52,426 bases of DNA, taken from assembly GCA_035556555.1 (NCBI GenBank), contig DATMES010000036.1, forward strand, positions 1-52,426, given 5' to 3'. This stretch comes from Frankiaceae bacterium. Its GTDB lineage: Bacteria; Actinomycetota; Actinomycetes; BP-191. The notes under the pieces are model-generated. The model saw only the letters and a program-made list of their open reading frames with translations. It had not been told where the DNA came from and did not search any database. A program made the translations under genes and the position numbers. The stretch's first letter is position 1; each line of letters begins with the position of its first letter. Below are positions 16,406 through 52,426 of this stretch, piece by piece.

Positions 16406-16437
16406 TCGTCCACACGAGTTGTCCACACTGTGGACGA
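16406..16437. promoter_or_regulatory. Cluster of three DnaA-box-like sites before fmdB
   Basis: Three 9-mers close to the actinobacterial box TTGTCCACA lie within 32 bases: TCGTCCACA (16406-16414), a perfect TTGTCCACA (16419-16427), and the inverted TGTGGACGA (16429-16437). The last two form the 15-base palindrome GTCCACA-C-TGTGGAC. The cluster sits between crgA and the fmdB-like gene, ending 7 bases before its ATG, so DnaA binding would cover its translation start region or promoter. The arrangement resembles the paired boxes at 44277-44297. Confidence 0.65.
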
Positions 16438-16444
16438 CGGCCTG

Positions 16445-16687
16445 ATGCCGATCTACGAGTACGTCTGCACGTCGTGCGCGGCGGTCGAGGAGCACCTGCT
16501 CTCTCTCGGGGCTGACGGGCCGTCGGAGTGCGCGGCGTGCGGGGAGCCGTTGCGGCGGAAGTTCTCCCGCGTGGCCGTGAAGTACGAGGGCTGGGGCTTC
16601 TCCGCGACCGACAACCTCGTCGGCGACACCCGCGGCAAGGACTACAAGGCGCTCCGCGAACGCGCCGAACGCATCTCCGACGAGTAG
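16445..16687 (+). CDS. FmdB-family zinc-ribbon protein
   Basis: An 80-residue protein beginning MPIYEYVCTSC, the hallmark of the FmdB/CxxC_CxxC_SSSS regulatory family. Two CxxC pairs (C8/C11 and C29/C32) form the zinc ribbon. The usual serine-rich tail is replaced by a charged segment ending RERAERISDE. Family members are often called putative regulators, but none is well characterised. An in-frame ATG at 16430 adds five residues, but the family start is at 16445. DnaA-box-like sequences occupy the region just upstream. Confidence 0.9.
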   Translation: MPIYEYVCTSCAAVEEHLLSLGADGPSECAACGEPLRRKFSRVAVKYEGWGFSATDNLVGDTRGKDYKALRERAERISDE

Positions 16688-16723
16688 CGGGCGGCCGCCC
16701 CCTCGTTCTCTGCGTTCCGCACG

Positions 16724-16756
16724 CCGGTCTCACGCGTGATGATCTTCAAAGAACGA
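16724..16756 (+). repeat. Copy A of a 33-base dispersed element
   Basis: The element starts CCGGTCTCACGCGT and ends CTTCAAAGAACGA, with GATGAT in between. A second copy, identical at 30 of 33 positions, lies on the opposite strand at 52272-52304. This copy occupies the gap between two convergent genes (fmdB ends 16687; the zinc-ribbon gene ends 16772). It contains the palindromes TCACGCGTGA and TTCAAAGAA. Homology stops sharply at both ends. Function is unknown. Confidence 0.75.
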
Positions 16757-16771
16757 GAGCGGCGCGCGGTC

Positions 16772-17137
16772 CTACAGGTCCTCGGGAACGTAGTCGGGCA
16801 CCGTGTCGGTCTCCGGGACGATCGCGTACGTCATCGCCTCGCCGCAGTGCCGCGGCGCCTTGTCGGAGCCGCGCCGCAGCAGCACGAGCTGGGTCCCGCA
16901 CTCCTTGCACGAGTACACGGGGACGCCGGAGTCCTCCACGACGTCCACCGGGTCGTACGTCTTCGTCCCCAGCTGCAGCGGCCGCATCGACGCGAGCCCC
17001 CACCGGATCACGAACGTCGCGATGAGCAGCCCGCCCGCCGCCCGCAGCCCCCACGACACGCCCCCTGCGTAGTGCAGGACGACCAGGAGAGCACAGACCG
17101 CCAGCAGCAGCCGGAACGTCAGCCTCCGGGAGGGCAC
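16772..17137 (-). CDS. Membrane-anchored zinc-ribbon-like protein
   Basis: A 121-residue protein starting at GTG 17137, which overlaps the stop of the thiolase gene. Two hydrophobic stretches (about 8-24 and 32-48) are followed by a cytoplasmic domain with CKEC and a later HCGEAM (C-x2-C then a third cysteine), a likely small zinc-binding fold. The C-terminus is acidic (VPETDTVPDYVPEDL). I do not recognise a characterised family. The coupling to a thiolase gene suggests co-expression but not a shared pathway. Confidence 0.7.
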   Translation of the reverse strand: MPSRRLTFRLLLAVCALLVVLHYAGGVSWGLRAAGGLLIATFVIRWGLASMRPLQLGTKTYDPVDVVEDSGVPVYSCKECGTQLVLLRRGSDKAPRHCGEAMTYAIVPETDTVPDYVPEDL

Positions 17138-42784: not shown

Positions 42785-44194
42785 TCACGACTGCCGGGCC
42801 CGGACCTTGATGCGGTTCGTCAGCTCGGAGACCTGGTTGTAGATGGCGCGGCGTTCGGCCATGAGCGAGCGGATCTTGCGGTCGGCGTGCATGACGGTCG
42901 TGTGGTCGCGGCCGCCGAACGCCTGCCCGATCTTCGGCAGCGACAGGTCGGTGAGCTCGCGGCACAGGTACATGGCGATCTGCCGCGCCGTGACGAGGAC
43001 GCGGGACCTGGACGAGCCGCAGAGGTCCTCCATGGACAGGCCGAAGTACGCCGCCGTCGCCGCCATGATCGTCGCCGCGGTGATCTCGGGGCCGCCGTGG
43101 TCGGGGATGAGGTCCTTGAGCACGACCTCGGCGAGCGCGAGGTCGACGCCCTGCCTGTTGAGGCTGGCGAACGCGGTCACGCGGATGAGCGCGCCCTCGA
43201 GCTCGCGGATGTTCGACTGGATCTTGGAGGCGATGTACTCGAGGACCTCAGGCGGGGCGTTCAGCCGCTCGGCGGCCGCCTTCTTGCGGAGGATCGCGAT
43301 GCGCGTCTCCAGCTCGGGCGGCTGGACATCGGTGATGAGGCCCCACTCGAACCGGTTGCGCAGCCGGTCCTCCAGCGTGGACAGCTGCTTCGGCGGCCGG
43401 TCCGAGGAGATGACGATCTGCTTGTTCGCGTTGTGGAGCGTGTTGAACGTGTGGAAGAACTCCTCCTGCGTCCGCTCCTTGTTCTCCAGGAACTGGATGT
43501 CGTCGACGAGCAGCACGTCGACGTCGCGGTAGCGCCGCTGGAACGCGCCGGCCTTGTCGTCGCGGATGGAGTTGATGAAGTCGTTCGTGAACTCCTCGCT
43601 GCTCACGTAGCGCACGCGGGCGGCGGTGGAGAGGTTCAGCGCGTAGTGGCCGATGGCGTGCAGCAGGTGCGTCTTGCCGAGGCCGGACTCGCCGTAGATG
43701 AACAGCGGGTTGTACGCCTTCGCGGGCGCCTCGGCGACGGCGACCGCGGCGGCGTGCGCGAAGCGGTTGGACGAGCCGATGACGAACGTCTCGAACGAGT
43801 ACTTGGGGTTCAGCCGCGCGGGCTCGGTCGGGCCGCGCCCGGGCGTCTCACGTCCCGTACCGGGCGAGACGAGCGCTTCGGGGGCAGGGCCGGTCGGCTC
43901 CGGCACCTGCTCGGGCGCCTGCGCCTCCTCGGGAAGCGGCTCGACGGTGACCGCGACGCGGATCTGCCGGCCGAGCTGCCCCGACAGCGCCTCGGCGATG
44001 AGCGGCCGGTACCGCGTGTCGAGCAGGTCCTTGGTGAACTCGTTCGGCGCGGCGAGCAGCGCCGTGTCCTCGACGAGGCCGAGCGGGCGGGTCAGCTGGA
44101 TCCACGCCTTGTTCTGCGGCGTGAGGGCTCCATCGGCAAGCGACTCCACCGAACGTTGCCACACAGCGACCAGATCGAGGGTGTCCTCGGGCAC
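42785..44194 (-). CDS. dnaA: Chromosomal replication initiator DnaA
   Basis: A 469-residue AAA+ protein starting at 44194 ([20 protein letters not shown]). Domain I is residues 1-85, with a short acidic/proline linker (domain II, about 85-130). Domain III has Walker [10 protein letters not shown], Walker [11 protein letters not shown], and sensor 2. Domain IV has the DNA-binding signature [15 protein letters not shown]. It binds 9-mer boxes, melts the origin and recruits DnaB. The linker is much shorter than in Streptomyces DnaA. Boxes upstream suggest autoregulation. Confidence 0.98.
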
Positions 44195-45419: not shown

Positions 45420-46422
45420 ATGATGGACCTCTTCCGCGGCCTGCTGACGCTCATCGCGCAGGCCATCGTGAAGCTGCACGACCTCACCGGACCGGTGTTC
45501 GGTGACGACAGCGGCATCGCGTGGGGCCTCGCGATCGTCCTGCTCACGGTCTGCGTGCGGCTGCTCATGTACCCGCTGTTCGTCAAGCAGATCAAGACGC
45601 AGCGGGCGATGACGGCGTTGCAGCCCAAGATCAAGGAGCTGCAGGCCAAGCACAAAGGCGACAAAGAGACCCTCAACACCGAGATGATGAAGCTCTACAA
45701 GGAGCACAACGCGAACCCGTTCGCGGGCTGCCTGCCGGTGCTGCTGCAGATGCCGATCTTCATCGCGCTGTTCCAGGTGCTCAACCAGCTGGCGCCCAAG
45801 CTCAAGGGCGAGGTGTACGAGTACCCGGCGAAGTTCGGCCTCTCCGAGGCGCAGAACATGTCGTTCATGAAGGCCAAGGTCTTCGGCGCGCCGATCGGCG
45901 CCGGCTTCCAGTCGCCCGCGCGGCTGCTCACCGAGCTCGGCGGCTCGTCCGGCGCGGTCAAGCTGGTGGCGATCACGCTCATCGTCGCGATGGCGCTGAC
46001 GACGTTCTTCACGTCGAAGCAGATGATGGGCAAGAACCCCAACGCCGACGCCTCCCAGGCCACGCAGCAGAAGATCCTGCTGTACGTCATGCCGGTGCTG
46101 CTCGGCGTCTTCGGCTTCCAGGTCGCGATCGGCGTCCTCATCTACTGGACGACGACGAACCTGTTCAGCATGGCGCAGCAGACCGTCGTCATGAAGCGGC
46201 TCGGGCCGCCCGAGGTGACGCTCGCCGCCGGCAAGGCCAAGGCGGCCGCGAAGAAGAAGAACGCTGCCGCCGCCGCGAAGCCCGCCGCGCCGAAGACGCC
46301 CGCGAAGACCGCTCCCGCCGGGTCGTCGTCCGTGGCGTCGTCGTCCGACGGCGCGGCCGCCGCGAAGCCCGCGGCCCAACGACCTGCCAACCGCAACAAG
46401 AACCGTGGAAAGGGGCAGCGCC

Positions 46423-46439
<17 letters not shown>
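45420..46439 (+). CDS. yidC: YidC/Oxa1-family membrane insertase
   Basis: A 339-residue protein with five predicted helices. Marks include IVLLTVCVRLLMYPLFVKQI, KELQAKHKGDKETLNTEMMKLYKEHNANPFAGCLP, and LLQMPIFIALFQVL. The conserved arginine in the hydrophilic groove is in CVRLL. There is no lipoprotein cysteine. The basic Lys/Ala-rich tail (from about 265) ends NRNKNRGKGQRRGGRR and likely contacts the ribosome. It inserts membrane proteins with or without SecYEG. The last 17 bases overlap jag. Confidence 0.96.
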
Positions 46440-49957: not shown

Positions 49958-50896
49958 GGCGGCGGCGGCGAGCAGGTCGCGGCAGACGACGCCGAGGTCG
50001 AGCCCGGCGGCGGCCACCGACATGGGCAGCATCGACGTCTCGGTCATGCCGGGTGCGACGTTGACCTCGAGGAACCACGGCGTGCCGTCGGCGTCGACGA
50101 TGAGGTCGGTCCGCGACAGGTCGCGCAGCCCGAGCACACGGTGCGCGGCGAGCGCGACGGCGGCCGCGGCGTTGACCGAGCGTTCGGGCAGCCGCGCGGG
50201 CGTGTAGTAGTCGGTCTGACCGGCGGTGTAGCGGGCGGCGTAGTCGAACACTCCGCTCTTCGGCACGATCTCCACCGCGGGCAGCACCGTCGGCGTCCCG
50301 TCGACGTCGAGCACGGACACGGCCAGCTCGGTCCCCTCGACGAACCGCTCGACGAGCGCGGTGTCGCCGTACGAGAAGCAGTGCACCATCGCCGACGGCA
50401 GCGCGGCCTCGTCGTGGACGACGGTGGCGCCGAGCGACGAGCCGCCGGACGAGGGCTTGACGAGCAGCGGCAGTGCCAGCCGCGTCAGCAGCCGGTCGAG
50501 CACGGCGTGGGCCCCCAGCTCGCGGAACGTCCCGTGCGGCAGCGTCACCGCCTCCGGCGTCGCGACCCCGGCCGCGCGCAGCAGCCCCTTCGCCGTCGGC
50601 TTGTCGAACGCCATCCGGCAGGCGTGGGGCGTGGACCCCGCATAGGGAACGCCCGCGAGGTCGAGCACGCCGCGGATCGCGCCGTCCTCGCCGGGCCCGC
50701 CGTGCAGCGCGATGAACGCCGCGTCCGGCCCGACCTCGTCCAGTGTCGTCAGCAGGGACGCGTCGGCGTCGTGCACCGACGCCTCGACGCCCGCGGACCG
50801 CAGCGCGTCGCAGACCCGGCGGCCCGAGCGCAGCGACACCTCGCGCTCGAACGACAGCCCGCCGGCCAGGACGACCGCGCGCCGTACGCCGCTCAT
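49949..50896 (-). CDS. ddl: D-alanine--D-alanine ligase
   Basis: A 315-residue ATP-grasp enzyme starting at ATG 50896. The N-terminal VVLAGGLSFEREVSLRSG has the family HGG-like loop with AFIALHGGPGEDGAIRG. LLVKPSSGGSSLGATVV binds ATP, and FLEVNVAPGMTETSMLPMS is the metal-binding and substrate end. It makes the D-Ala-D-Ala terminus of peptidoglycan precursors. It is short (usual about 310-370) but complete. The start overlaps the aminotransferase stop (ATGA). Confidence 0.93.
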   Translation of the reverse strand: MSGVRRAVVLAGGLSFEREVSLRSGRRVCDALRSAGVEASVHDADASLLTTLDEVGPDAAFIALHGGPGEDGAIRGVLDLAGVPYAGSTPHACRMAFDKPTAKGLLRAAGVATPEAVTLPHGTFRELGAHAVLDRLLTRLALPLLVKPSSGGSSLGATVVHDEAALPSAMVHCFSYGDTALVERFVEGTELAVSVLDVDGTPTVLPAVEIVPKSGVFDYAARYTAGQTDYYTPARLPERSVNAAAAVALAAHRVLGLRDLSRTDLIVDADGTPWFLEVNVAPGMTETSMLPMSVAAAGLDLGVVCRDLLAAAAAR

Positions 50897-52176
50897 GCCA
50901 TGTCCGGGGCCGGGCCGTCGGCGGCGGACCGCGGGGACGTACGAGCACCTGGCCCGAACGTCTCCCGCAGCTCCTGCTCGGCCTCGATGACGCCGGCGAG
51001 GCGGCGTACGCCCTCCCGGATGCGCTCGGGCTCGGGGTAGCAGTAGGAGAGGCGGAGGTTCGAGGCGCCCTGGGTGTCGGCGTAGAAGGCGGTGCCGGGG
51101 ACGTACGCCACCCGCGCCGTCACCGCGAGCGGCAGCATCTCCTTGGCGTCCAGGCCCTCGGGCAGCGTCACCCAGGTGTAGAAGCCGCCGTGCGGGGTCG
51201 TCCACGACGCGTCGGAGGGGAACAGGTCTGATAACGCATCGAGCATCGCATCGCGGCGTTCGCGGTAGAGCTCGCGGAACACCTTCACCTGGTCTTGCCA
51301 GGGCTGCGTACGGAGGTAGTCGGCAACGACGAACTGCGTGAAGTTCGGCGGGCAGAGCAGCGACGCCTCGGACGCCAGCACGAGCTTCTCGCGGACGGCG
51401 TGCGGCGCGAGCACCCAGCCGACCCGCAGCCCGGGGGCGAACGTCTTCGAGAACGACCCCAGGTAGATGACGCCGTCGGCGGTCCTGGCCCGCAGGGCCG
51501 GCTCCGGCTCGCCGTCGAAGCCCAGGAGGCCGTACGGGTTGTCCTCCAGCACCAGGATGTTGTGGCGCGCGGCGATCTCCAGCACTACATCTCGTCGTTC
51601 GCGGGAAAGCGACACTCCAGCGGGATTATGAAAGTTCGGGACGGTATAGAGGAACTTGGCCCTAGCCCCCACCCGCGCCAGTGTCTCCTCCAGCGCCTCA
51701 GGGACCAGCCCCGCGTCGTCCATCGTCACGTGGACGACCTCGGCCTCGTACGCCGCGAACGTCCCCAGCGCCCCGACGTACGACGGTGCCTCCGCCACGA
51801 CCACGTCGCCCGGGTCGACGAAGATGCGCGTGACGAGGTCCAGTCCCTGCTGCGAGCCGACCGTGACGACGACGTCGTCGGGCGAGGCCACGATGCCTTC
51901 GAGCGCCATGACCGTGCAGATGAGCTCGCGCAGCTCGGGGTCGCCCTGGCCGGAGCCGTACTGCAGCGCGACCGGCCCGCGCGTGGCGACCAGGTCGGCG
52001 ACCGCGGCGGCGACCGCGTCGAGGGGCAGGGCCGCGGTGTACGGCATCCCGCCGGCCAGCGACACGACCTCCGGGCGGGACGCGACCGCGAACAGCGCGC
52101 GAATCTCCGACGCCGTCATGCCACGCGTCCGGGCGGCGTAGCGGTCGCCGTACGGGTCGAGGTTGACGCCGGTCAT
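50893..52176 (-). CDS. PLP-dependent class I/II aminotransferase (LysN/2-aminoadipate type)
   Basis: A 427-residue fold-type I enzyme. SRPEVVSLAGGMPYTAALP is the N-terminal signature of the MocR-like/2-aminoadipate aminotransferase group. YTVPNFHNPAGVSLS, VLEDNPYGLLGF (Asp binding the PLP nitrogen) and LGSFSKTFAPGLRVGW (Schiff-base lysine) follow. The arginine in NLRLSYCYPEPE binds the substrate carboxylate. The exact amino donor is unknown. It is translationally coupled to ddl, which suggests but does not prove a role in amino-acid supply for the cell wall. Confidence 0.92.
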   Translation of the reverse strand: MTGVNLDPYGDRYAARTRGMTASEIRALFAVASRPEVVSLAGGMPYTAALPLDAVAAAVADLVATRGPVALQYGSGQGDPELRELICTVMALEGIVASPDDVVVTVGSQQGLDLVTRIFVDPGDVVVAEAPSYVGALGTFAAYEAEVVHVTMDDAGLVPEALEETLARVGARAKFLYTVPNFHNPAGVSLSRERRDVVLEIAARHNILVLEDNPYGLLGFDGEPEPALRARTADGVIYLGSFSKTFAPGLRVGWVLAPHAVREKLVLASEASLLCPPNFTQFVVADYLRTQPWQDQVKVFRELYRERRDAMLDALSDLFPSDASWTTPHGGFYTWVTLPEGLDAKEMLPLAVTARVAYVPGTAFYADTQGASNLRLSYCYPEPERIREGVRRLAGVIEAEQELRETFGPGARTSPRSAADGPAPDMA

Positions 52177-52426
52177 CGTCCGAGGCTACCCCTCCGGACG
52201 CGCCGGCTCGCCAGGTCCCTGCGCAACCGGGAGCCTTTTCCATCCTGACGGCGTGGTTGGCGCCGGCATAGTCGTTCTTTGAAGGTCACTACGCGTGAGA
52301 CCGGCTGCTGGGCTGCAGGGTTGGGCCGACGCGGGTGCGCGGGCGCCGCTCGTCCGGGGTTGACCGCCGTTCTTGTGGTGGTCCAGCGCCAAAGGGGCTC
52401 CTCCCCAGCACGATCCAGGCCCAGCG
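52177..52426. other. Right-end non-coding stretch
   Basis: 250 bases upstream of the aminotransferase with no convincing gene. It contains copy B of the 33-base element and a TTGACC hexamer near 52360 without a clear partner -10. The window ends here. Confidence 0.5.
52272..52304 (-). repeat. Copy B of the 33-base dispersed element
   Basis: Read on the minus strand it begins CCGGTCTCACGCGT and ends CTTCAAAGAACGA, the same as copy A at 16724-16756; the central six bases are AGTGAC instead of GATGAT (three differences). It lies about 100 bases upstream of the aminotransferase start. The core ACGCGT is kept, but the longer TCACGCGTGA palindrome is broken here. Confidence 0.75.

Follow-up and report, generated by a model that had tools for sequence, protein, structure and literature searches.

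The window, by which we mean the whole stretch of 52,426 nucleotides analyzed here, is contig 36 of the 71 contigs in the 3.98-Mb genome of an uncultured Frankiaceae bacterium (G000). It contains two matches to a 33-base pattern, on opposite strands, with the coordinates and strands given in the original prediction (Table 1). The two copies differ at 3 of the 33 positions, confirming the reported identity at 30 of 33, and 100 shuffled windows gave no match to the pattern, so the claim that such a match is beyond chance in 52 kb holds. Genes were called by codon usage with a caller trained on the window. Copy 1 was said to lie between convergent genes, and it does, between an FmdB-type zinc-ribbon gene and a gene on the minus strand. 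Copy 2 is indeed upstream of a gene, 96 bp 5' of an aminotransferase gene (50893–52176, minus strand), and the two copies flank the origin region, as stated, with dnaA at 42785–44149. The origin region is also marked by a YidC-like gene (45420–46439).

Table 1. Features of the two copies of the element and their surroundings in the window.
Feature	Position	Strand	Basis
Solitary hairpin copy	16702..16761	+	Covariance model R1, 60 positions (full model), 74.1 bits, E 4.1e-18; folding
Outer stem, 5' arm CGTTCTCTG	16704..16712	+	Alignment A1, pair counts
Outer stem, 3' arm CAAAGAACG	16747..16755	+	Alignment A1, pair counts
33-mer of the original prediction, spanning the conserved tip and 3' side of the hairpin element	16724..16756	+	Pattern match
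Apical GCG, matching the site at which IS30-type insertion is fixed in the sister species; uninterrupted here	16734..16736	+	Sister junctions mapped via alignment
FmdB-type zinc-ribbon gene, convergent neighbor; stop codon ~15 bp before the element	16430..16687	+	Gene call; Pfam PF09723
Convergent neighbor gene without Pfam match; stop codon ~16 bp past the 3' arm	16772..17137	-	Gene call
Class A MITE-like repeat with copy 2; TIR 52223–52247, other end beyond the contig end	52223..52426	-	Repeat alignment
33-mer core within the class A repeat; CCCAACCCTG in place of the 5' arm, outer stem lost	52272..52304	-	Pattern match, flank alignment

Alignment of the copies with their flanks shows the 33-mer core in two contexts, solitary hairpins, such as copy 1, and a longer class A repeat, which carries copy 2. 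The 33-mer makes up the 3' portion of an imperfect palindrome of about 54 bp (54–58 bp are shared), and in copy 1 the conserved unit extends beyond it on the 5' side, covering 16702–16755. The solitary copies have sharp ends and unrelated flanks, with no similarity outside these ~54–58 bp. Their consensus is CTCGTTC[CT]nTGCAGnCCACnCGCCGGTCTC[AG]CGCGTGGTGATCTTCAnrGAACG, with CGTTCynTG and CAnrGAACG forming the outer stem. The tip of the hairpin, TCTCnnGCGTnnTGATCTTCA, is nearly invariant, and TCTC, GCGT, TGATCTTCA, and GAAC are almost unchanged among the solitary copies; the 5' strand is loosely conserved and variable in the loop region. The stem arms of G000 are CGTTCCTTG, CGTTCTCTG, and others, paired with CAAGGAACG or CAAAGAACG, and those of the sister species, the congener Frankiaceae bacterium BP_191 (G001), are CGTTCTGTG and CACAGAACG. 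The outer stem is supported by covariation of its arms at two positions. Across 41 sequences, pair 9–49 occurs as G-C 20 times, as U-A 9 times, and as U-G 3 times, and 12 of its changes are two-sided; pair 8–50 is seen as U-A, U-G, and C-G. The remaining stem pairs are mostly near-constant, so they are little informative on covariation. This is the only stem that we claim; an inner stem predicted by folding had no covariation support and was rejected. A stable fold is predicted for both strands of the element, and the curated Rfam covariance models gave no match up to E = 1. The core can also be read in one frame as P-V-S-R-V-V-I-F-K-E-R, and many of the changes fall at third positions of that frame, as they would in a repeated protein motif. 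However, the copies lie between called genes, have one-base length differences inside, and are flanked by stop codons; the coding reading was rejected and is almost certainly wrong.

The 33-mer pattern with ≤3 mismatches has 107 matches in G000, and reversed-pattern controls have none. The matches are divided 57/50 between the contig strands, which has little meaning since contig orientation is arbitrary. A slightly relaxed pattern of the conserved core, also with ≤3 mismatches, is found at 144 places in G000, 87 in G001, and 0 in G002, a third congener; the three belong to one genus, and the covariance model also found nothing in G002. We use pattern counts throughout, as the covariance model, built on a near-palindrome, matches the complementary strand of a copy too, and its search stopped at 150 matches. 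In a scan of 394 genomes of the class, there are no strong matches outside the genus and only weak, mostly single ones. With the relaxed pattern required to match exactly, BP_191 is the sole other genome with the element among ~85,000 species, and collections of viral contigs, plasmids, and phages gave no match to the element. Thus, the suggestion that the two copies belong to a genome-wide family is correct, with >100 copies in this genome and 87 places in one congener.

Ten filled sites in G000 were picked for their conserved flanking genes, and the orthologues were located in G001 and G002. At none of the ten sites was the element found at the orthologous place in either congener. At four sites where the same convergent gene pair is kept, the gap is much shorter in the congeners. 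The gap at the TsaE site is 64 bp when filled in G000 vs 4 bp in the empty congener, and at the RecR site it is 83 bp vs −4 and +6 bp in the congeners. Similarly, the gap is 106 bp filled vs 6 bp empty at GatB/YqeY and 111 bp filled vs −14 bp in both congeners at the DAHP synthase site. A different hairpin fills the orthologous gap at FmdB in G001 and at LepA in G002. The one in G001, 3' of the FmdB orthologue in the gap that holds the window element (locus L207), is a perfect long-stem hairpin, CCCCGTTGTGTGCGGGAT ... ATCCCGCACACAACGGGG. When 30 sampled loci of the sister species were compared with ~90 loci of G000, there were three flank homologies but none had the element at the same site. 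Because orthologous sites are empty and positions are not shared, we conclude that the copies were placed independently in each lineage by dispersal. The flanks of the solitary copies carry no signal of a target duplication. Together, the copy number, the restriction to a lineage, the empty orthologous sites, and the sharp ends support the idea of a small mobile repeat, one of those put forward in the original prediction.

What might have moved these copies? A Y1 transposase (PF01797) was not found in G000, G001, or G002, with positive controls, an absence that is not absolute in draft assemblies, and the enzyme was dropped as the mobilizer. Gene pairs bracketed by two elements were considered as a source; the two regions inspected hold only ordinary genes. 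These searches yielded no mobilizing enzyme, neither a Y1 transposase nor an assembled IS30 transposase, which counts against a mobile repeat, as does the lack of a target-duplication signal.

The solitary copies are strongly biased in their gene context. Convergent-gene gaps hold 39 of 94 vs a background of 12% (p about 1e-12), a 3–4 fold enrichment, and divergent-gene gaps hold 3 of 94 vs 22% (p about 3e-7); the background is from neighboring gene pairs without the element at the same loci and is approximate only. Convergent enrichment is also seen in the sister species (12 of 35 copies). The distance from the edge of a solitary copy to the stop codon has a median of 24 bp and a peak at 10–20 bp. 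This placement, together with the stable fold predicted for both strands and the nearly invariant tip, is what would be expected of a 3'-end signal recruited by the host, an RNA hairpin serving on either strand as terminator or stabilizer and kept for separating convergent transcripts. Furthermore, the unrelated hairpin at the FmdB site of the sister species has a similar length and fills the same gap. However, the window copy has no U-tract and no terminator-like match, and its 3' flank is G-rich. The same convergent pairs in the congeners lack the hairpin and even overlap. In tandem gene pairs, the element is in the sense orientation in 22 and antisense in 30, which is no clear preference for the strand of the adjacent gene. 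Moreover, >100 independent origins of one sequence are impossible without copying. We therefore regard recruitment as a 3'-end signal as a serious but rather unlikely explanation of the family. Since the relatives do without the element and the U-tract is missing, an essential terminator role is argued against, and an incidental effect on the 3' ends of transcripts, or a secondary role there, is possible. Two points speak against the mobile-repeat reading: the copies crowd more closely around 10–20 bp after stop codons than mere tolerance would demand, and selection for a role in the cell could also account for the invariant tip. Two related ideas were rejected: C-rich, rho-like 3' flanks, as the skew in G000 equals the background, and placement of the element within older terminator hairpins, as locus-specific pairing of the flanks was not above that of re-paired flanks.

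A site for chromosome organization or DNA segregation, with polarity relative to oriC, would have the high copy number and directional sequence seen here, and one window copy lies on each side of dnaA. Against this, the close congener G002 has no copies, positions are not conserved between congeners, and such a role leaves the strong gene-end bias unexplained and is not needed; it is very improbable.

The ends of a single insertion sequence are found at nine contig ends of the sister species (loci L300–L303, L305–L307, L322, and L331), and all nine are within copies of the hairpin, at the same base. The inverted repeat of the insertion sequence is GGYGGTCTCAACYGRTCRGTGCAAC, and its transposase has the C-terminus NGRPRKTLGSMTPSEKLNEVLVALTG. 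The left junctions join CCCCTCTTGAGCG to GGTGGTCTCAAC and the right junctions join GTTGAGACCGCC to GCGTGGTGATCTTCACAGAACG, which places the insertion at the apical GCG, with an apparent 3-bp duplication. The ~39 C-terminal residues of the transposase that are assembled are ~62% identical to an annotated IS30 family transposase, the best-covered plasmid match, and the fragments have no convincing match in Pfam or NCBIfam. The family model finds no full-length IS30 transposase gene in the G001 assembly because the full gene is not assembled. The ends of the insertion sequence were not found in G000. A transposase, probably of the IS30 family, thus clearly selects the hairpin sequence in the sister species, and the element is possibly a protein-binding site in a wide sense, bound by the transposase.

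For some insertion sequences, REP palindromes are known to be fixed sites of insertion (PMC1525189). As with ISPsy8, IS1397, ISPpu9/10, and others, the palindrome here is broken at a constant base, and all assembled copies are in the palindrome; however, the REP-targeting elements described belong to IS3, IS110, IS4, IS256, and IS5 (PMC1525189), whereas this one, judged from its C-terminus, is probably of the IS30 family. IS30 itself inserts preferentially at near-palindromic hot spots, duplicating a short stretch of the target (PMC9333248). The near-palindromic hot spot is common to both, but in the present case it consists of a dispersed family of repeats, and the target duplication appears to be 3 bp long (GCG) instead of 2 bp.

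Could the palindrome be a by-product of IS30-type transposition, formed from IS ends or IR–IR junctions and spread by the IS30 transposase? The location of all nine assembled ends within the hairpin would agree with this, two abutted IS ends would form a palindrome of similar length, and GGTCTCA and TGATC are common to the IS inverted repeat GGYGGTCTCAACYGRTC and the G000 core. These common words are short and differently spaced, however, and could be chance. G000 has the most copies yet no IS ends, and for IS30 such sites normally serve as targets rather than substrates (PMC9333248). We consider this origin decidedly improbable.

The class A repeat, in which the hairpin no longer has its 5' arm, has inverted ends GCAACCGGGAGCCTTTTCCATCCTG ... 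CAGGATGGAAAAGGCTCCCGGTTGC and a length of ~230 bp, often longer. Besides window positions 52223–52426, about 40 other loci of G000 carry it, and the assembly breaks there at many contig ends. Its terminal inverted repeats (TIRs) are at least 25 bp and it is non-coding. G000 has 75 TIR matches, paired ~220 bp apart, and at 30 TIR loci the pairs are ~150–220 bp apart, a space too short for a transposase. Some copies have longer outer inverted ends that begin with CGATCGGGGTGCG. No autonomous parent was seen, most copies breaking at contig ends, and the class A ends are missing from both congeners. With its TIRs, short length, lack of coding sequence, and many copies, the class A repeat is MITE-like. 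The solitary hairpins differ in that their inverted ends are only the stem arms and no target duplication is visible.

The solitary hairpins resemble REP sequences more closely, being short, imperfect, extragenic palindromes in high copy. They share with the REP/REPINs dispersed by TnpA_REP (RAYT) a number of >100 per genome, a preference for convergent genes, lineage specificity, and use as an IS target (PMC1525189, PMC8266576, PMC2817692). By contrast, no GTAG or similar tetranucleotide was found beside the palindrome from flank composition by position; in G000 C-T precedes the stem and A/G-G follows it, and in the sister species AGTCGGG follows. The element is also ~54 bp long with a conserved one-sided tip, and occurs mostly as single copies rather than BIME clusters. 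Because the two defining features that were tested, the GTAG motif and a Y1 transposase, are both lacking, we do not file it as a REP.

We propose, with a probability of about 0.75, that the element is a new family of non-autonomous, REP-like, lineage-specific mobile palindromes of ~54 bp, not REPs in the strict sense. In the proposed mechanism, an enzyme acting in trans, which would recognize a folded strand or the palindrome, made the copies, and these would survive where they are harmless. The conserved tip may be read by the dispersing enzyme, by the IS30 transposase, or by both. A broader proposal, that extragenic palindromes spread without a Y1 transposase through an enzyme reading the TCTCnnGCGTnnTGATCTTCA tip and serve as convergent-gene insulators and as safe landing sites for the IS30 family, is doubtful. 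The spread of short palindromic repeats in bacteria is usually linked to one domesticated transposase. This family has become abundant in actinobacteria in whose genomes no such enzyme was found; with empty sites in close relatives and a transposon that reads the tip, it makes a separate system for studying the dispersal mechanism and effects on convergent gene ends.

Some copies depart from the simple hairpin. A variant element in G000 (locus L067, 1065–1126) has a perfect inner hairpin, CGCGG TCTCC CCGCG, and another copy with the same orientation lies ~110–120 bp away. At seven loci of the sister species (L105, L137, L139, L143–L145, and L148), the hairpin is at the center of a larger imperfect palindrome, whose outer arms resemble GGNTCTGCGAARCTCC; this is possibly a second MITE.
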